Below are positions 11,401 through 56,059 of a stretch of 64,000 nt of DNA, one piece after another. The notes under the pieces were generated by a model. That model was not told the origin of the DNA. It ran no database searches and saw only the letters and a list, made by a program, of their open reading frames with translations. The DNA comes from Bryopsis sp. KO-2023 (lineage: Eukaryota; Chlorophyta; Ulvophyceae; Bryopsidales; Bryopsidaceae). Positions within the stretch are counted from its first letter, which is position 1; the number at the start of each line of letters is the position of its first letter. The translations under genes were made by a program, and so were the position numbers. The stretch is from positions 744,001 through 808,000 of the forward strand of contig BSYQ01000015.1 in the NCBI GenBank assembly GCA_030272585.1. The letters run 5' to 3'.

Positions 11401-14400
11401 ATATTTCATCTGTTAGTTCATTTTCCAAGGCATTCATGGCCTCCACAAATGCGTTGCTCGACTTGTTGAAGGTTGGATTTCCGGGGCCAAGGTCATAACT
11501 CTCCAAAACAGGCAACGCTGTGGCAAGGGCTAATGCTCGGTGTGCGTTGAGAGTCGAGTCAATCCTTCAAAAAAACAACACAAGGTTACATTCATGTACA
11601 AGGGTATGTGTGTGTGTTCATGCAATAGCCCGGAGTCTTACCCAGTCTTTGAAAAGATAGTGGGCTGCTGAGCGCTTTTCAAACTGGAAAAATGCCCCTC
11701 TCCTCAAAAGGAAATCGAAGAGGCAAACCAACCAGGCATAATTACTCACAAGATTTACTAATATTTCCCAATTACCGTTTTGTTTTTCAATTTTTGGGTG
11801 CACATCAAACAATCAGGTGGTTAAATATAAGTGCTATTTCACATTGTTACTGAATTTAATTTTCTTCTACCCCCCAGTGTATTTTTCTCACTCTTCCTCA
11901 AGCAGGTGATTTATGATCGACAATACAGAAGGCACTCTCCCCACTCCAGCCGAAATCTCGATGGTCCCAGTGCCAGGCAGGGCATCTGGAAGTTGCAACC
12001 CTTCGCTCCAGCTGTTTCTGGAGCTTTTTCCCCTGACAGTAAAGGAAGTGGCAATCTGTACAGGGACCTGCTGCTCCACCACTGGAAAGCTCAACTCCAA
12101 AGCATCGCTCATACCTGGAGCATCTGTGAGGAAAAAAAAACAAAAACAGAACGTCAAAATTGAAGACGGCATGGAAAAAACATAGAGTCTTTGAAAGAAA
12201 GAAAAAAAGTTATCTTTCAGGGTAAGGATGGTTAAGAATGGGTTCCAGTAGCTGCAAAAATCGAACAGGTTTGTAGGAAAGAAAAATTTCCCAGTTTAAA
12301 CAAAAAAAAGTGTGTGTGCTCAACATGAATTGAAAGAAGAGACAGATTCTTTTCTTTGGGGGGGGGGGGGATTTTTGAATGTGAATACTTGAATTATAAA
12401 ATATTATGTCGGGGATAATTGGTATTTTATTACCTGCCCTTATTGAGACGGTTGCATTTCCCACTCGAGTGGCATTGAAGCGGAACCTCACTTCAGCTTG
12501 CCCGTCGGAATCGGTTTCGAAAACTTTTTTCTCCAAGGTCACAAGGCAATCGACGCCATCTAAAAAATAAAATGAAAATATACATGTGAAAAAAATATTA
12601 ATTGAAAAGTTAAACTTTTAAATAAATAAATAAATAATGTTTATTCATGATACGAATCTTTGCTGCCATCTGCATCAAGGTATAGATCTCATTTGCTTAG
12701 TTAGAAATTCAACACGATGAAAACCGCCTCCAATCATAGCTCTTTAGGTTTTTCTACCAATTCAAATTCTTTGGTTTAAAAAAAAATGAAGAAAAAATTT
12801 ACTAAAGCCATTTTGACCTGGTGAACAAGCATCGGCCCCTCGGACGCTGGGCTTTCCAGAATCATCCGATGGAATGTACTCGATACTGTTGGATGCTGTT
12901 GGATCTGTCAAAAGGGTGACTGTGACTGGCAGTCCTTCTGGTTCTTTCCCAGTAGCCGTCACCACAGCTCCAGCTTCAAAGGAATCCCCCACTCTTACTA
13001 ATCGGGGGGCCGAAGCAGATAATGAAAGAGGCAACCGAACCAAGATTTCTGTCTCATTGCTGCCACGCTGAAGGGTATCTTTCCAAGAAAAAAAAGAAAA
13101 AAGCTTGAGGGAATTGAAGGAAAGAAAGAAAAAAACAGCCCTGAAGTCATGTGAATTAAAATAATTTCTCAAAGACCTGGAATGATCGGTGACGGGTGCA
13201 CGCCTGTATTTTCCCTCAATCGCTTTTTCATTTGGACAACGTTCTATGAGTTTTTTTTTGTATTGTTTTTTAATATCACACAAGCAGACAAGCACAATAC
13301 CAAGCATCTGCTTCAAAAAAAAAAAAGGAAAGTGGCACCAAGTCAATACAAAAAAATACAATACACACACTTTCAAAGTTACAATTTTATTTTTTTTTGA
13401 ATTATTATCTCACCAGATGCAGCATAGGCCCGAATAACGAAGGTCCCCAAATTGTCTGGGGCGATAAAATCGATCTGAGCCTCTCCATTTTCGTCGGTTT
13501 TTACCGTTTTGAACAGCGGAGTGACCTTGAAATCGCTTTGGGCTCTAAGATCTGGGGAATTGAATTTCTCATCAGGTGATCTGGCAGAAGGACCTGTCAG
13601 CTCGCTTGATGGCTGCTGAAATTCTCGGCCCAAAAATGAGAGGAAGGATGGATCCAGTGAAGGAGGTTGGTGCGTTATGCTGGTGGGAAAGCTTTCGATT
13701 TCCTCTGGGTAAAGAAAAGAGCTCGACTGGCCAGAGTAAAAAGAGCAGCAGTAAGGTTCAGACAATCAAGACAAAAACCCAATCAAGACTTCATACGCCG
13801 GGAAAAAATAAAAGTAAAGCCAAATCAGAACTAGCTTCCGAAATAACTTATCTTAAAACGTGTTTGAAAATGCTAATTATGGCTATTAGTAATATCGATG
13901 ATTAGTCACTGCATTCTTTAAAGGCCAATAAAATGACCGAAAGAATTGATGCATAATCGGAACCAGTTCTGGCACTCAGTAGAGAGATGAGCAACAGATC
14001 TATTTCTCATATTTAAGAAATAAAATATCCTATTTATATTTTCATTAACAGCCATCGACATTTTTGTATTGTAGTTGTTTTTTTTGAAACGATTGATGTC
14101 CAGATTCTCACCAAACTTCTAAACATTCTGCTGGTCACCCACGGATCGACCTCCATCAATTGAATAGCATTTTGCACAACTTCATGCATTCTTCCAGTGA
14201 CCTCATAGATCGAAATTTCACTTCCTCCATTGCGGGTTAACTCTGGAGTCTCAGCGTCTGCCAATTCAAAAAAAAAAAAGCTGAAAATGTCAAGTCCTAT
14301 TATGGGAATCACAAGAAATCTTTGGTAGGACCCTCCAAAAAAACCAAAAACGGGACAGATACTGTGCATTTAATTTTTCTGGGAAAACCCAAAATATGTT

Positions 14401-17400: not shown

Positions 17401-20400
17401 AAAACAGAAGAAAAGTATTACAAAGCAAAAAAACTAGATTTCAGAGAAACTTAATGAGACTTAATGTTTCATATTTTTCTAAAATATGAAACAGAAAAAT
17501 GAGTAAACACGATTTTTTCTCCAATTTCACTGACCTCCAAATTGGATCGTCACTTCTGCATTCGCAACATTGGTCCCAAGACGAGTCGAAAGCACAACAG
17601 AGACTTCAAATGTCGAATTTGGCTTCACCTGTATCGATTCGATTCAACCGAAAAATAAAAATAATATTATGAAAAAAAGTTATGAGCGTTTCTGAAATAT
17701 TCCCCTCTCTGACTGTCTCCTCTCAAAAGGAAAGCAACAGGATGGAAATTCTCCAAATCGTTGGGAGTCTTATAAGACTATAGCCATCAGAAAAACTCTT
17801 CACCATCAATCCATTCAATTTACAGTGGATGGATACATGTATATACATGTATCAATGGCAACTCAGCATCAACAGCACCCCACCCCCCATCCCTCGTCTT
17901 TTACTTACCCAATCTGGACCGGTGAGCTCCAGTTCAGCGATTGGAATTCTTGGCTCCCCCACAGTCAGTCCGGCATCTGGCCATGAGAAAGCTTCGTCGG
18001 AAAATCCAATAAAATAGTCACCGTTCTCCATATCGGCTGGAATCCTGAGTTTATGGGAAAAAGTACCGAACTGGGGTTCCACCGAGACGTTGAACGAGAG
18101 GATTGCTGGGGAATAGCTATTTATAGTGAGATTCATTTGCAGAGTTGAGTTTTCTCCAGGAGCTCCGTAGGGCACCAGACTTCCGTTTGAGGTGAATGTA
18201 CTGATGAAACCTGCATAGGAAATCACAGGGGAAATGTGATGTGTTTTTTTCTTTTTTTTTTTTTTTGGGGGGGGGGGGATTTGGAGTGAAAAATAAAAGG
18301 TTCGGACATGAATTGCCATTTTTTTTTGTTCACAGCATTTTTGTTTTTTTTGGGGGGGGGAGTTGAGTGTCAAAGAAAATAAAAATAAAAAAATTGAAAC
18401 GAGAGCAAGAGTTCTTTTTGCTTTTTATTTCTCGAGAATTGAGGAGTAAAAAATATACATATATTTTTTCATAAATAATTTTTATTATGATGAATATAAT
18501 TTATGGTTCATGGTGCCACTAGCATGGAAATTAAAAGAAAAAAAAAACTGAAGTTTTTTACTTTTGCTTTTTTTTTCCCCTCCAGGCCCCCCTTATTTCA
18601 ATTCATTCATATATACGTATCAAGCGGAGACATTATTGAAAATATATTTCAAAGTCTTAATTAAAAGGTTTAAATTCTAAAATTATATAGTAAAAACGAA
18701 AGAAAAGAATATTCAGTATCACAAACCTCCTAGATGAACGACGTCCCCTGGCTCCACGACGTTTCTATCCAAAACAATTTTCCCTTCGTTCATCTTTTCA
18801 TGAATCCAAGACTCGATGCCTCGAGAAACCTTTTTAATTCTGTCCCCCTTTTTCCAGTAAGAAAATCTTTCCTCTTGTTGTTCGCAAGCTATGATATTTT
18901 GACAAGCATCACCCAAGAAAACTGCCATTCCATCGGCATCCGTCTTAACAGTGTCGACTCTTTTCTGTATAAGAAAATAACCCCCCCCCCCCAAACAAAA
19001 AAAAAAGAAAAGAAACCTCATGAGAAAAGAAAATTTGAAAAAAAAAATGAAAAATGAAAAAGTGATGTGTGGAGATTCCGCAAGTCTGACTGAATTTTGA
19101 GCAACACTTGATATTTGCCTTACAGACAGTGGCATCGATGAATTTAAAAAACAATCATGATACTATTTGTAAGATACTCTTAGATATCCCCCCCCCCCTT
19201 TTTTTTATCCCCCAGAAAAACTTACCAATTTTTTACTGGCTACTTGTTGACCTTCGAATTGTTGTTGCTTGAGAATTTCGATGTCAACATTTTTGACAGG
19301 CTTTCCAGTCTTGAAGGAAACTATCCAAAACATGATTTCGATTCGCATGGACCCATCCTCTTCAAATCTTATTCTTGTCATGGTAAGGTCGCTGTTTTTG
19401 ACCTCTCGGAAGTAATTCCAAGTTTCCTCACCACCCGGACTACAATTTTTTTTTAAAAACAACATCACTTAGATTTTTTTTTTTTTTTTCACAGCAGAAT
19501 TTTCATTTTATTTTTTCAAATGTATTGCGTCAAGGCCAAAATCTGGATGGAAACGAGTACTGTTGAATTTCATTGTAGCATCCTTGTTTTCCTTGGTGAT
19601 TTTTAAGAAATCAAAAAAAGACATCTGGGTGCAACACACATACATACACGCTCCATAATTCGGAACAATTTTTTCAAAATGAATATTTTAGAATCCATAC
19701 AAGAAAAAATACACTGAAGAAAAAAAAAATCTGTAAATGATCTAATGACCTCTACATGCAACTGCACACCACACCAGACCACACCGATTTTTAAATTTTT
19801 TTAAATTTTGACTATCAAATACATGTATCAAAACAGGTATAATAACTTCTGTTAATTTATACAGGTCTTGACACATTTTTTTTGAAATCAAAGGCATCCT
19901 CTTGACAGCCATTGTATCGATACAGAAACTATACTTTCTTTCTTTTTTTTTTGGAATTTAATTTAATTCTAGAAAAAATACTCACAGAGTCCGGTGGATG
20001 GCAACGTATCCAGTTTCCTTCAACAAATCTTTCAAATCCATCGTCGTTACAGAAACCTCCATTGTGTCTGGAATATGCACCACCAAATCTGAAAAAAAAG
20101 GAAGAAAAAAAAGATGCATACTTGTACCCAATATAATTTCTGAAAAAAAAAAAAAAAACGACAAGAAACCCACAGAAAAAAAAAATAATAAATAATAATA
20201 ACAATGTTGACAAATGGGTGCATTGATGAAATCAGAAATCCACAGCAAAAACAATTCTGAGCAATTCATTCAAAGCATATCAACGGAGCCTCAAGGAAAC
20301 GCATTCATGATGCGCTCGAATTTCTTGAATTTTCCTTTCCTTCCTTTTTTTTTGGCATGTTTCGATTTTACTGTTTTTTTTTTTTTTTCCTTCCCAAACC

Positions 20401-26614: not shown

Positions 26615-29600
26615 CTATTGGACTACGTTTTCCACTGCCGACAGGAGGTTTCCGTTGTGTTGGATGAGAAGGTCGATCGCTGCCCCTCTTGGTAAAGCCA
26701 AGATGTCCATTATCTGCAAGACGTGTTCATCGTTGACCAGCAGTTCGCTGTCGTCCCCGCTGGGTTCGCTTAACTCCATTGGATCTGGAGGTTTTTTTCA
26801 AAAAAAAAAAAAAAAAAAGAGTGGAGTGGAGTGGAGTGAGAACTTACAACCCGGCGAAAAACAAACAAACAAGCATTAACATTATTGGGGGGATTAAAAC
26901 TACTAGCTTTTTTTTACCATCGATAGATGAAAAAAACCCAATTGAATTGAGCTGAACAGAACAGTAACATTCAGGTCGAAAAAAAACCCAAAAAATAAGA
27001 AAACCTCCACATTCACGACGCAGGATTAACTAAAAACGAAACAGGGCCATCCGGCCTTATGCTGATCGTTCACAAAAACAACAAATATCAGGACCAAAAC
27101 GGGGAAAAAAAAGTCTACAAAAATTTATGTGCCCACCTGCCCCTGCTGCTGCCCCCATCCCTGCTCTAGCAACAGCTTCTGCCTCTTCGATACCAGCCAG
27201 CAGTTCAATAACTTGCTTATGGACCGGCGAAACGCCCTCCGAATCGTCTACCTGATGCAACACATCGATGCCCAGATTCTTTGCAAAAATATCCTGGCAG
27301 TGCTGCTTTTTGAACCACTCTCTGTGTGCCACCAGAAGGGTTCTGACCAGGGAGGCCAGGGATGGCCCCGGCAGGCCGAACGAATCTTGGAGGGCCGTTT
27401 GGATTGCCGAACACAGGTCCGTGGGGGAAGGCATCTCCGGTTTTGTCGACATTATCTGCGACACGGTTTCCTGAAATCGAAAAAAAGACATTCAAATTTG
27501 ATGCCGATTTGCATGTTAAAACCTCTTCAGAAAGCACACTCATATATCTACATATATACACTCATATATATATTTTTTTTGAAATTTCACACCCACTTGA
27601 AGGGATTTGACGAGTCGATCTTTGTGCTGGGTTTCCATGTTTGCACTGACGATGGGTGTCAGTTTTTTTCTGACGAGAATCAGAGCAGCATCGTGGGCTC
27701 CCCCCGTCGCCATTCGCAGCACTTCGAATCTCCACAGCTCGAACAATATCTGGGGCTGCCTTTTGAACAACTCCGCATCGATTTCAGAAATGCTTTCCAT
27801 TGCCTGTGTAGAAAAAAGCGATCGCTAAGAAGTTTGGAAGTTTGGAAAGCAAACAGCCGTGGAATAAGAAAAATGCCCCTGTTATGAGCAGTAATAAAAT
27901 CCACGCAGGTCTATGGATATTCTATAAATTGATGTCCGGCGAAAACGAAACCTCATTTCAGCATTCCATGGATATTCAACGTCTGTTCCCCCAACCAGCC
28001 TTGCATAAAATTTTCAAAAACATTTTCAACCATCAAGAATCTACCTTTAATTCCACCTTCGATTTATTTTTCTTTCAACCGACTTTATTCAGTTTCAGCA
28101 ATCGTTTTTCTGGTTGGTATCCTATTTTCACCTGAATATATTTTCCATCTTTTACCCAGCGAACGAGCCTTAAAATCCGTCGGAGCTTGGGGTCGCATTG
28201 ATAACTCCTGCTTGCCCTTGCATTGTTCGAATCCTGCTCCAATTTGGCTGGAATTGTCGCTGCCTCACCGCCCCCAGCTGTTTTTTGAGACTCGTTTTCC
28301 CCAGGCACAGCCTCGTCTGCCTAAGAAACATACACCCGGTGGTTTTCACTTTTGCTGGATCGTTTTCAACTTCCCCACTGGACTGCGTGCAGTGGTTGAT
28401 GATTGACAATGCTGGATAAATGCCGTCTTTCAAACTGATTTTGCTCCCATAGCGTTTCCTGTGTTTTCTTCAAAAAATTTAATTAAGCAGTGCAGAAGGT
28501 TATGTCTGACTGTTGATACACACATGCTCCCTCGAGTCTAGATTAGAGTCGATTTCCATATCGTTTGAGTCGGAGTCCTGATCCGAAATTTGCAGCAAAC
28601 CCCTGGCAAACGAACAAAAGCAATTCTTCTTTTAAAATAAAAAAAATGTGAAGGCACGCATAGCGAAACCTGCCAATTCTTGAAAAAAAACAAAAAAACA
28701 GCACAACTGCAAAACAATACTGGATACTGAATACACAGGCATTTGACTTCGCATATCTTGGGGACTGCCAAAAAAGTAGTTCATTACTTTTTACTTTCTT
28801 TATTATAAAAAGTAACAATTCAACCACAATATAATAAATATACACCCTCCTCCCCCCCAAAAAACAAGAAAAAAAAAAGCTTAGGGAGGAAAGGAGGATG
28901 TCTCGTGAATGCCCTACCTGTAGCCTGCATATTCCATGACCAGTTGATTGAGCTCTTTCAGATTAATTTGAATTCGGCCCAATTCGTTTTCAAAGGCAGC
29001 CGCCACGTCTCCGTTGGTGTGTTTCAACGCATCCATAGCTTCTTGCCTTGGGATATTCACTGCTTGAACAATAGCCTGTGCGCATTAATATACCATTCAA
29101 ATTTTCCAAACATCCACCCCACATTCTCCAATTGAAAAATTTCCGCCAGAAACACCACTTTATTTTTAAAAATTAAAATTTTCATTTTTTTTCACTGTTC
29201 CCCAAATAATACTCAACACTTGAACAAATCCGATTTTTCCAAAATGAAATCTTTTACCAAATAAAGACGCAGCCTTAAAAACAGAAAAAAAAGCTTCCGG
29301 ACACTTGGCATTATTTTTGTTAAACCTTCTGGGTTTTTTCCTCAAGCTAAATTTAGAAAAACTGCAAGAAATTATAATGAACGAAAAAACTGACCTGGAT
29401 ATCTCTTTCTTGAAAATCGGCACTTCTTTCTTCTGGAAGAGGTCCAGGCCATCTTTCTTCCACGACCAGCTTTGGAATGATATCAGAGTCGGGGGTTGGC
29501 AAATCGAGGGAGGAATGGATACAATTTTGCTTGTGAATAACCAACAAATATTTCAACAAATTTAACAGGTCGGGGTCCTTAAAACCTGCATTTTTTCCAA

Positions 29601-31191
29601 AAAAAAACAAAAAACAGAAGATGTAAAAAGAAGTTGAATGATTCCTTCATGACATGCGGTCTCATTCCGCAATCCATTTTTATGAAAAATAAAATGAAAA
29701 CAAATAATAAAATTAAACACATGTCAGACGATAACACATTTTTTGCGAGAAGGGCTGCACTCAGCAATTCTTAACCTTGCGCAAAGCATTTCACAATAAG
29801 AAAAAAAATTTCACTATTTAAAAAAAATACACAAAAAACGTGTGGACCTACCGGTGGCTTTTCTGAGGGTTCCAAATATTACACTTCCCAAATGCTGCCT
29901 GGCTTTCAAAGACCACTGTTCCGCCACTGGGCTTTCCGATTGATCTTGGTCGTACAAAAACATCAACAAGGTTTTCTTGAATTCGTTGTAGGCATCCGCG
30001 TATGCGTCCAAAGCCAGCGGAGCCAGCTGTTTTCTCACCCAATCTTTAAAAACATTCAAACCCACAAAAAAAAAATCATTCAAGAAAAATTTCGTGTATC
30101 TGCAACGTATGCAAGCAGGATATGCATGACTAATCGAATGTTGTGGATGGGGTTCAATAATGGATGCTTTCATGTGAAGCCGAAATTCAATCCTAAAAAG
30201 CACCACTTTTGAACACAACGATTTTGTTTCTTGAAGAAGCATAGGGAAAAAAAAGCAAATGTCAATTTTGTCGAGAGCCAAAAAACAATAAAAAAATGCT
30301 TCAGTGTATATCAATAATAAAGAATTTCTTTTAAATTCGACCACTTGCAGAAAGTTGTTTTCCTTGTGAAACAAAGTCATGATGGTAATTACCGAGTGCT
30401 GCTTGATCTCCAGAGCTGCCTCCAGCCCTCAACAGCTCTATGAAAACTTGCCTTTTTAAATGAAATTCAAGCCGGGTGTCCTGCACACATATCAAAAAAT
30501 AAGCAATATACACAAAAAACCAAGCAAAACGATGGAAAAATTTTGCTGTTAAAGCCCATATCAATTATGGCATAGTGGACAGGCTGTATATAGCTCCAGT
30601 TCTATTTTTAGAAGCCACCCAGTCTGACTAACAAATTCACTACATTTCTCGACCATTTTTCCATTGGAATGAATGTCGGAAGGGTCAAAGGAAATAAATA
30701 AATAAATAAATAAAAACAAAAATCAATTCTGCTATTTTACTGGTCTTTACCGTCAAAACTTCGTCGCAAATTTCTTGGATCAAATTTCTGGCCTCCACCA
30801 CAGCGCCTTCGCCGATTTTTTGCCGCACGATTTCGCATCTCCGTTTCATTACCCACGAAGAATCCGGCTGACCTCCTTCCTGTGAAATTATTACAATTGT
30901 TTATTTATTTGTTTTAATTTATTTTTATTTAATTATTAGCTTCACACACCAGCACGACTGTGCAACCATCTCTCTTCTAGATTACGAAAAACAAAAAAAA
31001 CACGAAAAAAAGGGAAAGAAAAAACAATAATATAATATAAAACATGAATATATATACACATATATATATAAAACAATAAAATAAAATATGAATCGCACCT
31101 CCAACAGTCCTTCGAAGGCCATATAACTGGTCACCATACTATCCAGAGCTCCAAGGTTAACCCCACCTTGGGATTGAGCCAGGGACGGCAT
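26615..31191 (-). CDS. Protein with duplicated LisH/CTLH-CRA/UBA-like unit (GID/CTLH-complex related)
   Basis: Twelve exons, all in phase, give about 639 aa: 31099-31191, 30751-30879, 30393-30480, 29852-30043, 29395-29585, 28918-29075, 28522-28602, 28371-28458, 28132-28320, 27597-27803, 27137-27470 and 26615-26784. First unit: LisH-like LDSMVTSYMAFEGLLE, CTLH (CEIVRQKIGEGAVVEARNLI then LEFHLKRQVFIELLRAG), CRA helices (WVRKQLAPLALDAYADAYNE), then a UBA-like stretch (IPRQEAMDALKHTNGDVAAA). Second unit: LNQLVMEYAGYRGLLQ, an acidic linker, CTLH (KLRRILRLVRWVKDGKYIQA, LFKRQPQILFELWRFEVLRM), CRA (ALILVRKKLTPI), then a UBA-like end (LPRGAAIDLLIQHNGNLLSA). Known GID8-type proteins have one LisH-CTLH-CRA of about 230 aa. 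A role in a CTLH-type E3 ligase is inferred from family only. The exon 7/8 and 8/9 junctions (28371-28524) are the least certain. Confidence 0.75.
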
Positions 31192-38418: not shown

Positions 38419-40565
38419 ATGATGAAGTCTGCCACATTCGGCTCCGTATTGGGAGGCCGGCCTCTCGTACTTTCCCATCGGGCGGCAAAGAGAGTTCTTG
38501 CCCAGCCCACCACCAGGGCTGCGTTGTCCGTTGAGGAAAACGCTGCTGCACCAGCCGAGGTATTCACTCCAGAAATTTGGCATTTTATGATTTCGACTCA
38601 ACTCCCTCTCCTGGCCTTAGCTTTCCTGTAGGGATATGATTTCGACTCAACTCCCTCTCCTGGCCTTAGCTTTCCAGGGGATAGGAGGTGACCTGCACTT
38701 AAAACCTTTAGATATTTCTGCTTATTAGTCACGCAATCAAGGATGTGAGGAGGTGGATGTGTTGGCACTGCCACAGCATTGGTAGTTCAATTTTTTTTAT
38801 GGTGGCTATGCTGTGGTGAATAGGTCGACTCTACCGGTCCAGTCATCACCAAGAGTTTTTGCGCACCATGGAAAGTTCCTGAGGAAGCCGAGGCGCTGGC
38901 TTTGGACATCATGAGGTCTGGCGATTTGTTCAGATACAACAGGGATGACAACGATTCCTTGGTGTCGAAACTGGAGGTGGCCATGGCGGAGTACACCGGA
39001 CACAAGTACTGTGTCGCGGTCAACTCTGGTGGTTCAGCTTTGTTCCTCGCGCTTATGGCTGCTGGAGTCAAGGATGGGGACAAGGTAGCTAACCAACCAA
39101 ACTCTGGTAGATTGGTGGCAGTTTGGATAGGAGACCCTGGCAGTTAAGAAACAAAGCAAAGGCCGATTTTGGCTGATGTTGGCATGTTTTTTGGCGGATG
39201 GGAGTGGAGTGAAGTGGAGTTTGAAGAATTCTGGAAAATATGGTCCATAACGATGTGGGGTGCTGGTGTGTTGCAGGTGTTCTCCAATGCTTTGACATTT
39301 GGAGCCGTCCCTAGTTCAATCCATCATGCCGGTGGCGAGACAATTTTGATCGATTCGGCCTCCGATTTTGTATGCGATTTGGAGGATCTGGAAGAAAAGT
39401 GCAAGAAGAACCCTGACGTCAAGTTCTTCCTGATTTCTCACATGCGAGGGAAGCTTGCGGACATGGATGCTGTTGCCGACATCTGCGGCAGATATGGAAT
39501 CACTCTCATCGAGGATTGTGCCCATTCTTTGGGGGTGTTCTGGGGAGACAAGCACTCCGGACACACCGGCATCGTGTCGTGCATCAGCACCCAAGCCTAC
39601 AAAATGCTTAACTCTGGAGAAGGCGGTGTCGTTGTTACCAATGATGAGGTACGGCCAGTTTTCCCACACCTGCCCCTTCTCAAGCAGCACACAAACTCAC
39701 AAATTATATATATATGTGTATTGACATGTATTAACATATATAATATATTACATGTCTGTACATATATACTCGCAGACTTTGGTTGGAGAGATATTGATGC
39801 AGGCTCCTGAAGCATTTTCCATGACTGTTTGCCAGTTCCGAGGTTTTTGTTTTTCAGTTGGTGAACTGCAAGGGTTGACCAACTTCTCTGTCTGTGTTTT
39901 TTTTTTCTCGATTCCAACAGCTGATTGCTGCAAAGTGCATCATCGCCGCTGGTGGCTACGAGAAGCTTTACTTGAAGCACAAAGCCACTCCTTCTGCAGA
40001 TATTTTTGAGAGCTGTGGGAAACTGAAGATCCCAAACTACAGCATGCGAATGAGCAACTTGAGCGCCTCCGTTCTCATCCCCCAGGTCGACCTGGTGGAG
40101 GAACGAAGGCAACTGTGCAACCGCCGGTACGACATGGTTGCAGAAATTCTGGAGACGGGAGCTGCTGATGTGGGTGCCTGCATCGAGGTCCCACCTCAGC
40201 ATCCCAAGGTCGACCCGTGCAACGACTCCATCCAATTCAACCTCAGCGGATACACCTTCGAGCAAGTCGAGACTTACGTCGCAGCCGTCAGGGCTCGAGG
40301 TGTTCCTGTGTCAATTTTTGGTTCTCCGGACAATGCTAGGAATTACCGCACTTGGCATTTCCTTGGGGATTACCCCATGATGCCCAAGACTGACATGGTG
40401 ATCAAGTTCGCCATCGACGTCAGGCTTCCCCCTGAGTTCACCGACGAGGATTTCGAGTTGATGTGCAGATGTTTAATTGCTGGCTTTGAAGCAACAGGTC
40501 CTCCTGCTGCGAAGACTGTTATTTCAAGCAATGCTGTTTCAGCAGGAACGACCGTCCATAGCTAA
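38419..40565 (+). CDS. DegT/DnrJ/EryC1/StrS-family PLP aminotransferase
   Basis: Four phase-0 exons (38419-38559, 38824-39084, 39277-39648, 39921-40565) give 472 aa. PLP-dependent fold-type I enzymes of this family aminate keto-sugars or make 3-amino-5-hydroxybenzoate. Seen here: the opening SGDLFRYNRDD, the cofactor-phosphate loop NSGGSALFLALMAAGVKDGD, LTFGAVPSSI with an HHAGG insert, the aspartate in LIEDCAHSLG that contacts the pyridine nitrogen, and the catalytic lysine in STQAYKMLNSGEGGVVVTND. The first 45-50 residues (MMKSATFGSVLGGRPLVLSH, Arg/Ser-rich, few acids) look like an organelle transit peptide. ATG 38419 follows an in-frame stop. Substrate cannot be deduced. No sugar-nucleotide or antibiotic genes adjoin. 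The family is mainly bacterial, so an acquired gene is possible, but its introns show long residence. Confidence 0.88.
38586..38675. repeat. Direct tandem duplication in aminotransferase intron 1
   Basis: A 41-bp unit beginning TATGATTTCGACTCAACTCC occurs at 38586-38626 and again at 38635-38675, period 49 bp, apparently without mismatch. It lies wholly within the intron, 3' of the exon-1 donor. Confidence 0.9.
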
Positions 40566-54787: not shown

Positions 54788-55684
54788 TTACCACGCCTCC
54801 ATTTGTTTCAGCAACTCTTCCTCAAGGGTGGTGAATTCCATCCAGCTGATGTCAGTGCTTTCCCAGTCCTCCTCCGCTGGGGCCACCTCCCTCCCAGATA
54901 TTTCCAGGGTTTCTGGCAATTTTCCCAACGCGAACCAGCCATACATCTGCTGCCAGTTATAAGGACCATACACCCCCAGCGGATTCCGAAAGAACCACTC
55001 GTGTTCGATCGACCGAGACGGCCTGAACACGTGGAAGGCGTATTTCGCCAGTTCCGCCAACGAGTAGTCCTGGACCGATTTTTCCTCGTGGAAATCGCCG
55101 GGCTCGCCAGGGTTGGCGCTCGAGAAAGCGGTATTGTTTTCCTCGCTGCTGGTGGGCGTCGCGACTCGTTTCTCCCTTGCAGTCAGATATCGCAACAAGC
55201 CCCGTGGAGATTGCGCGTCGTCCAGCAACTGGGCTTCGATCAGTTTCGCCAGCGGCGCAAACACCATCTCCCCCTCGTCGTAATCCTCCCCCTCCCTCAC
55301 CGCCGAGACTTTCAAACCCTTGTACAGCGTGCCTCCTTCGAACCAATCCCACATTCTTTGTCCAGGAAATGGGCCCTGCACCATGTCCGACGGGTCTCGA
55401 TACAACCACACCAGGGGAGGCTCCTGACTGAACAGCTTCCATGCGACTCGAGCGGAAGCCCGTTGCCTCAACACGCTCTCCCTCGATGCCAGCACAGTCC
55501 ATGTGACCGTCCCAACCTCCCGCACCAATTGTTGCCCACGCAGCCGACCCTTCAGCCTCCATTGGAACATGAGCTCCGAAGGAAAACTCCCTCTCACAGC
55601 ACCGCTGCTGTCACGGTATTCCCAACCGCGCTCGACGAGGGGGTTGTCCAGCTCCTCGTCGTCGATATGCCCCCGTCGATCCAT
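54788..55684 (-). CDS. Intronless protein with three GYF-like modules
   Basis: 298 aa, ATG 55684 (MDRRGHIDDEELDNPLVERG), stop TAA 54788-54790. Three segments follow the GYF pattern W-x-Y/F-x-(D/N)...G-(P/S)-(F/Y)...M-x-x-W...G.L: residues about 20-50 (WEYRDSSGAVRGSFPSELMF), about 93-125 (WLYRDPSDMVQGPFPGQRMW) and about 232-262 (WFFRNPLGVYGPYNWQQMYG). GYF domains are small adaptors that bind proline-rich peptides, for example in CD2BP2/Lin1 and GIGYF proteins, linking to splicing or mRNA repression. Known proteins usually carry one. Between modules 2 and 3 is an acidic, serine-rich linker. No other domain is visible, so a pure GYF adaptor is inferred. It starts back to back with RPS23, about 375 bp between the two ATGs, so a shared bidirectional promoter is possible. 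Confidence 0.72.
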   Translation of the reverse strand: MDRRGHIDDEELDNPLVERGWEYRDSSGAVRGSFPSELMFQWRLKGRLRGQQLVREVGTVTWTVLASRESVLRQRASARVAWKLFSQEPPLVWLYRDPSDMVQGPFPGQRMWDWFEGGTLYKGLKVSAVREGEDYDEGEMVFAPLAKLIEAQLLDDAQSPRGLLRYLTAREKRVATPTSSEENNTAFSSANPGEPGDFHEEKSVQDYSLAELAKYAFHVFRPSRSIEHEWFFRNPLGVYGPYNWQQMYGWFALGKLPETLEISGREVAPAEEDWESTDISWMEFTTLEEELLKQMEAW

Positions 55685-56059
55685 TTCGCAAAAAAACAAC
55701 GAACGCTTCCGCTGTAATCAGAAACGGCAAACGCAAAGGGACCGTTTTTCTCTTTGCACACCTATCCAGGTAACCGTACAACTGTCAAAAAAGAGAAAGC
55801 CACTCTTTGCGCGCGCTGGAGGGAAAGAAACTAACTCACAGACATAGTCACACAAATTTTTCCAAGGAATTGAGGGTGTCGTACGCACGCTTGTACGAGA
55901 ATACCAGCTTCGCACCAGAAAACCAGGTCGCCCTCAATAAAAAAAGACTGTCTTGATTGGCGGCTGGAGGGACGAACGACACCACGGGTCGGAAGCGGAG
56001 TGTTGGCAGCGCTTGGATTGTGTCGAGGCTATTCTCTTTTTCGAAAGACGTGAGCAAAG

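Follow-up and report, generated by a model that had tools for sequence, protein, structure and literature searches.

Does one gene of the alga Bryopsis sp. KO-2023 encode two divergent LisH-CTLH-CRA-UBA units in a single chain, as a preliminary description of its sequence proposed, and what might such a protein do? In the portion of PMC13061415 available to us, core CTLH subunits are described as carrying one LisH-CTLH-CRA module each, with the order of the ring explained by which modules pair, and a natural two-module chain would offer a test of ring order set by covalent linkage. We analyzed the gene within a 64-kb stretch of genomic DNA (the window) and searched the 91 Mb genome, which comprises 28 contigs (labelled C1–C28). 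At the sequence level, the spliced gene is predicted to encode two homologous units in one open frame, each consisting of CTLH-CRA with a LisH-like block before it and a NAC/HYPK-type UBA after it, and the second unit appears eroded and much less recognizable than the first.

Gene structure and domain content

The gene lies on the minus strand between a start ATG at position 31191 and a stop codon ending at position 26615, which are the two ends given in the preliminary description, and our splice model contains 11 exons and 10 introns that all have GT-AG ends and create no frame conflict. The modeled protein is 601 aa in length, and the earlier figure of 639 aa is not upheld. Introns range from 126 to 352 bases, GC content is 50.3% in exons and 33.1% in introns, and the three codon positions have GC values of 59.0/37.4/54.7%. 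Four donors, at introns 1, 7, 9 and 10, begin with GTG, so the exon boundaries at these introns could move, and the gene may have a further 5′ exon ahead of the ATG.

All exons are on the minus strand, and unit 1 begins in exon 1 (31099..31191, aa 1–31) with the start ATG and a LisH-like block. The CTLH domain of unit 1 occupies exon 2 (30751..30879, aa 32–74), where the Pfam match begins at aa 45–49, and exon 3 (30393..30480, aa 75–103), and is followed by the N part of CRA in exon 4 (29852..30043, aa 104–167), with exons 3 and 4 each covered by both Pfam and solved-sequence matches. Exon 5 (29395..29585, aa 168–231) encodes the presumed C-terminal CRA helix of unit 1, a linker and the first residues of the first UBA (UBA1), with a GID8 match that runs to aa 188 and a UBA match that starts at aa 229. 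Exon 6 (28918..29075, aa 232–283) carries most of UBA1 and then the opening half of the unit 2 LisH-like block, which is completed on exon 7 (28524..28602, aa 284–310) ahead of the start of an acidic insert. The insert continues in exon 8 (28156..28320, aa 311–365) along with the first CTLH helix of unit 2, which is placed by MAFFT alignment only and lies outside the Pfam match, and exon 9 (27597..27803, aa 366–434) carries the CTLH domain of unit 2 as defined by alignment and by a Pfam match to aa 366–446. Exon 10 (27137..27470, aa 435–545) encodes the CRA-like part of unit 2, assigned by alignment to unit 1, and a linker, and exon 11 (26615..26784, aa 546–601) encodes the second UBA (UBA2), assigned by Pfam, and the stop codon.

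The profile scan of the spliced protein proposed in the preliminary description recovered Pfam CTLH twice and UBA_HYPK twice. Across the whole 601-aa protein, CTLH scores 60 bits (3.6e-16) in two stretches and UBA_HYPK scores 33 bits (3.9e-8; cut-off 27) in two stretches, the further Pfam matches are weaker UBA families only (UBA_4, 0.0023; UBA_HOIP, 0.016), and Pfam detected no WD40, SPRY, RING or NAC domain. Unit 1 alone matches CTLH with 43.6 bits (4.2e-11) over profile positions 5–124 of 146. The second half of the protein, where it had been considered that profiles might fail to detect CTLH, does match: unit 2 alone reaches 20.3 bits (6e-4) at aa 366–446 over profile positions 20–91, a weak match below the curated cut-off of 26, and no CTLH profile match is seen when the CRA half at the C-terminal end of unit 2 is scanned by itself. 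UBA1 and UBA2 alone match UBA_HYPK with 25.2 bits (1.1e-5) and 17.8 bits (0.0021), both below the cut-off of 27. The LisH profile has no match in unit 1 or unit 2 at E up to 10; among controls from the same genome, it matches GID8 at 1e-8 and does not match the presumed RanBPM.

When the exons of the genome were searched one at a time for CTLH, seven matches at four places came up and the doubled-unit gene was missed; its CTLH domain is visible only once spliced. The UBAs of the gene account for two of the eight matches at E up to 1 in an exon-wise UBA_HYPK search (E values 0.125 and 0.218, neither reaching the cut-off), ranked behind a presumed HYPK on C14, a presumed NAC-alpha on C13 and one more match. 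AlphaFold2 models exon 10 alone with low confidence (mean pLDDT 54) and, without an alignment, models exon 11 alone (UBA2) as two helices (mean pLDDT 77), where a UBA fold has three.

Within the 64-kb window, no Rfam match was found at gathering score. Other features of the window include an open frame encoding three GYF domains in one exon (54791–55717, minus strand; PF02213, 1.5e-23, three stretches), a DegT/DnrJ/EryC1-type aminotransferase exon (39148–39810, plus strand; 5e-27), and an exon with a weak alpha-2-macroglobulin match that is unexpected in an alga (12765–13409, minus strand; 3.4e-4, 20.8 bits, cut-off 21). Positions 17855–18424 on the minus strand, which had no match, could be part of the same gene as 12765–13409 or of another.

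Internal duplication

Direct comparison of the two halves supports a shared origin of the units. Unit 1 and unit 2 align with a score of 80 (shuffle mean 32.1, z 9.3, reached by 0 of 1000 shuffles), UBA1 and UBA2 align with a score of 52 (shuffle mean 20.8, z 7.4, reached by 0 of 1000), and a single local alignment spans CTLH, CRA and UBA in both halves. Intron positions, judged by eye, seem unshared between the two units.

The LisH-like block comprises 32 residues in which aa 11–42 align with aa 268–299 without a gap and with 11 identities. The second copy is divided between 16 residues on exon 6, the exon it shares with UBA1, and 16 residues on exon 7, whose first codon is split by the intron. 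In fixed register, the fraction of 100,000 shuffles that reaches this similarity is 4e-5 for the exon 6 side and 1.1e-3 for the exon 7 side, and with the register left free across the N-terminal 45-residue stretches of both units the best ungapped score of 49 (mean 19) is reached by 0 of 2000 shuffles. Alignment of unit 2 to a GID8 and RanBPM profile with hhalign selects the LisH region with a score of 25.0 at an hhalign probability of only 6%, relative to a mean of 13.1 and a maximum of 21.2 in 60 shuffled controls and 12.1 for the reversed sequence. Upon addition of unit 1 to the profile, the alignment of unit 2 shifts to CTLH-CRA (E 2e-6, probability 89%); with the profile lacking unit 1, the CTLH core of unit 2 scores 16.1 (E 0.11) and is indistinguishable from noise. 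The proposal of two divergent LisH-CTLH-CRA-UBA units in one chain therefore stands for homologous units in which CTLH, CRA and UBA each occur twice, with the reservations that LisH is seen on alignment only and that unit 2 is badly eroded.

Relatives of the units and their UBA domains

The preliminary description suggested a search for a separate GID8 gene, and an ordinary GID8 is present on C4 (CTLH 134 bits, LisH 1e-8). The genome further encodes a RanBPM-like protein of 525 aa on C16, uninterrupted in a single open frame (CTLH 68 bits, with SPRY and LisH recognized by eye), MAEA- and RMND5-like proteins on C1 and C11 (CTLH matches, with RING-like ends recognized by eye), a presumed WDR26 on C5 (LisH_WDR26 60 bits, with WD40-like ORFs recognized by eye) and a presumed GID4 on C12 (68 bits). 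Near WDR26, at about 6.0–9.0 kb of C5:6226500-6235500, two open frames of 488 and 533 aa resemble parts of retroelement polyproteins by eye.

Against the GID8 of the genome, unit 1 scores 123 (shuffle mean 32); with the presumed RanBPM its score is 55, and the core of unit 1 alone scores 95 against GID8, 45 against MAEA, 42 against RanBPM and 22 against RMND5. Unit 2 aligns best with unit 1 (80), followed by GID8 (61, a score that one shuffle in 1000 attains) and RanBPM (41, attained by 62 in 1000), and the CTLH core of unit 2 scores 35 against the GID8 core, a value reached by 33 of 500 shuffles. Solved sequences compared with the whole protein at E up to 10 give four matches, each to a GID8 homologue and each lying over unit 1 (best 8e-8). 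Together, the nearness of unit 1 to GID8 and the presence elsewhere of an ordinary GID8 and presumed RanBPM, MAEA, RMND5, WDR26 and GID4 genes argue that the doubled-unit protein is an extra, diverged GID8-family paralogue and not the GID8 of the alga.

No close second copy of the gene emerged from a whole-protein query of the genome, where each of the 11 matches (E up to 10) falls on an exon of the gene itself, in a search too blunt to show even GID8. In viral contigs, exon 10 gave 12 pattern matches and exon 4 gave five, and exon 10 gave 273 pattern matches in genome contigs, none confirmed in either set; these queries with exons 4 and 10 covered viral and prokaryotic collections and are uninformative on distribution among algae. 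The genome carries a green-type rbcL on C28, for which the best PDB matches (60 of 61) start with 8q04 and 1gk8, the latter of which we take to be from Chlamydomonas, and has 107 exon-wise matches to chlorophyll-binding protein. These rbcL and chlorophyll-binding matches point to a green alga as the probable host. Polyubiquitin repeats in the genome lie 228 bases apart, equal to 76 codons with no inserted residue; an insertion of this kind marks Cercozoa, and its absence led us to reject a rhizarian host. A cluster of ubiquitin domains occupies about 134.9–198.2 kb of C17 (325 kb), with 10 of the 48 matches listed, nine of them in open frames of 279–355 aa; in C17:183500-193400, three long ORFs encode a ubiquitin-like domain ending RLRGG or RLHGG and then a conserved domain with the motif FGRGIY(S/T)TPD, which by eye presumably resembles an ADP-ribosyltransferase-type fold.

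The earlier assignment of a HYPK/NAC-type UBA after each unit agrees with the two UBA_HYPK matches and can be refined, as UBA1 is nearer to the UBA of the presumed NAC-alpha (58, z 10.3, reached by 0 of 1000 shuffles) than to that of the presumed HYPK (33, reached by 6 of 1000). UBA2 is nearest to UBA1 (52), then to NAC-alpha (33, 6 of 1000) and then to HYPK (21, 128 of 1000). An NCBIfam archaeal NAC model also matches at UBA1 with 25.4 bits, far under its cut-off of 80. Canonical UBAs carry an MGF-type ubiquitin-binding loop, which was not seen in the UBAs of this gene. NAC is a ribosome-bound chaperone with a similar small docking domain. In the excerpted text of PMC11372111, the UBAs of NAC-alpha and HYPK dock the NatA subunit Naa15, and the NAC-alpha UBA also docks SRP54.

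CRA interface residues

According to the available sections of PMC13061415, subunits of the CTLH ring form one dimer through LisH-CRA-C and another through CTLH-CRA-N, and an aromatic residue two positions past the core Leu at the CRA interface is the class given for CTLH-complex members. Alignment of unit 1 with solved GID8, read by eye, places Phe132 at the presumed conserved core Leu position and Tyr134 two residues on, and the alignment of the two units, also read by eye, shows unit 2 without the aromatic. With the core Leu replaced by Phe132 in unit 1 and the aromatic absent in unit 2, CRA interfaces may be lost. Leu129, Tyr134 and Val143 of unit 1 occupy the places of mouse L147, F152 and F160 in the pairing code, where RanBP10 has Phe, Tyr and Val (PMC13061415, same sections), a weak hint that unit 1 may mix the two pairing codes. 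By eye, the GID8 of this genome has Val, Phe and Val and its RanBPM has Met, Tyr and Gln at these places, which leaves the Tyr/Phe position as the sole informative one.

Proposed function and alternative explanations

We favor, with a probability of about one half, a model in which the gene is a diverged GID8/TWA1 paralogue whose doubled unit and UBA would form an accessory two-module CTLH scaffold with NAC-type docking UBAs. The first step may have been the gain, by a GID8-type unit, of a UBA akin to the NAC-alpha UBA, followed by duplication of this unit and its UBA together within the gene. TWA1 alone dimerizes, as reported in PMC5234100, and the two LisH/CRA-C elements of a single doubled-unit chain could pair mutually or with a second chain. 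One polypeptide would thus supply what normally takes two subunits and could present a fixed order of interfaces. Unit 1 may retain a partly usable CTLH-CRA face and serve as an accessory scaffold in the CTLH ring of the alga or in a side assembly, and unit 2 would have lost the pairing signature. We infer a place for the protein in CTLH ligase, though one in which it would not be required in the ring, because presumed ordinary subunits already exist. Judging from domain type, the NAC-type UBAs might dock a helical partner, as with Naa15 and SRP54, or ubiquitin, and bring a client to the ligase.

CTLH ligase reads N-terminal degrons, and the presence of NAC-type UBAs on a CTLH scaffold would hint that the ligase is connected to N-terminal processing. 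In a bolder version that we consider a long shot, a self-paired chain would take a place in the CTLH ring, with both of its UBAs contacting Naa15 or SRP54 and so linking the ligase to the machinery that processes N termini at the ribosome exit; if true, an N-terminal-degron ligase would be coupled directly to nascent-chain processing.

The alternative that survives best, which we regard as possible but doubtful, is a LisH-CTLH-type protein outside CTLH ligase, comparable to SMU1, WDR47 and TOPLESS, whose doubled helical scaffold and UBAs would serve another assembly, perhaps one located at the ribosome exit. Such a role would fit the strong divergence, the erosion of unit 2, the changed core CRA Leu, the NAC-like UBA1 and the presence in the genome of presumed ordinary CTLH subunits, but unit 1 is nearest to GID8 among the genes compared (GID8, MAEA, RanBPM and RMND5), and among solved sequences it matches GID8 chains only, with no WD40 or other domain detected by Pfam. 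A GID8 duplicate that is decaying or unexpressed, as the far weaker recognizability of unit 2 might suggest, is improbable given that the 11 exons are free of stops and keep their reading frame, splice sites and bias across codon positions, and that both UBAs and both CTLHs can still be recognized. Least of all do we expect two adjoining genes, with the first stopping just past UBA1 and the second beginning in exon 7 or later without LisH: retention of intron 6 would bring an immediate stop where its donor forms TAG after EYAGYR, exon 7 contains a Met, and intron 6 has one AATAAA (a signal also found in introns 1, 5 and 8), yet intron 6 is 315 bases long with GT-AG ends, exon 6 joins most of UBA1 to the first half of the unit 2 LisH-like block, and this block carries on in frame across the next splice junction into exon 7, still aligned gap-free with unit 1, which makes two separate genes unlikely.

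Comparison with known systems

No architecture combining CTLH/LisH with UBA was found in the literature searched, though the combination may be annotated elsewhere, for instance in algal protein databases, and HYPK is unmentioned in the papers on CTLH/LisH/GID complexes among the matches listed. Doubled CTLH/LisH wording occurs in the accessible text of PMC3797097, in a passage on the Lis1 dimer, and of PMC6294250, and the accessible main text of PMC3797097 and PMC3464593 contains no word starting with UBA.

The doubled-unit protein combines features of several known systems and differs from each. With RanBPM/RanBP9, MAEA, RMND5 and WDR26, which carry the LisH-CTLH-CRA module, it has CTLH-CRA and a LisH-like block in common, but Pfam finds none of their SPRY, RING and WD40 domains in it, and presumed genes for each of these proteins lie elsewhere in the genome. 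TOPLESS, SMU1 and WDR47 carry WD40, whereas the doubled-unit protein has no WD40 found by Pfam and has two modules per chain. These three are LisH-CTLH-CRA folds outside the ligase in the available sections of PMC13061415, and the likeness to them in module type is by that description only. A UBA of the UBA_HYPK type is common to NAC-alpha and HYPK, but the doubled-unit protein has no NAC domain found by Pfam and places its UBA behind CTLH-CRA units, twice. GID8/TWA1 is the closest comparison, with the CTLH-CRA order of unit 1 and a best match to a solved GID8 homologue at E 8e-8; the doubled-unit gene is not the GID8 orthologue of the genome, given the far better GID8 on C4, and where GID8/TWA1 is a single unit of 228 aa (chain 9soc_B), the doubled-unit protein has 601 aa, two units and two UBAs.
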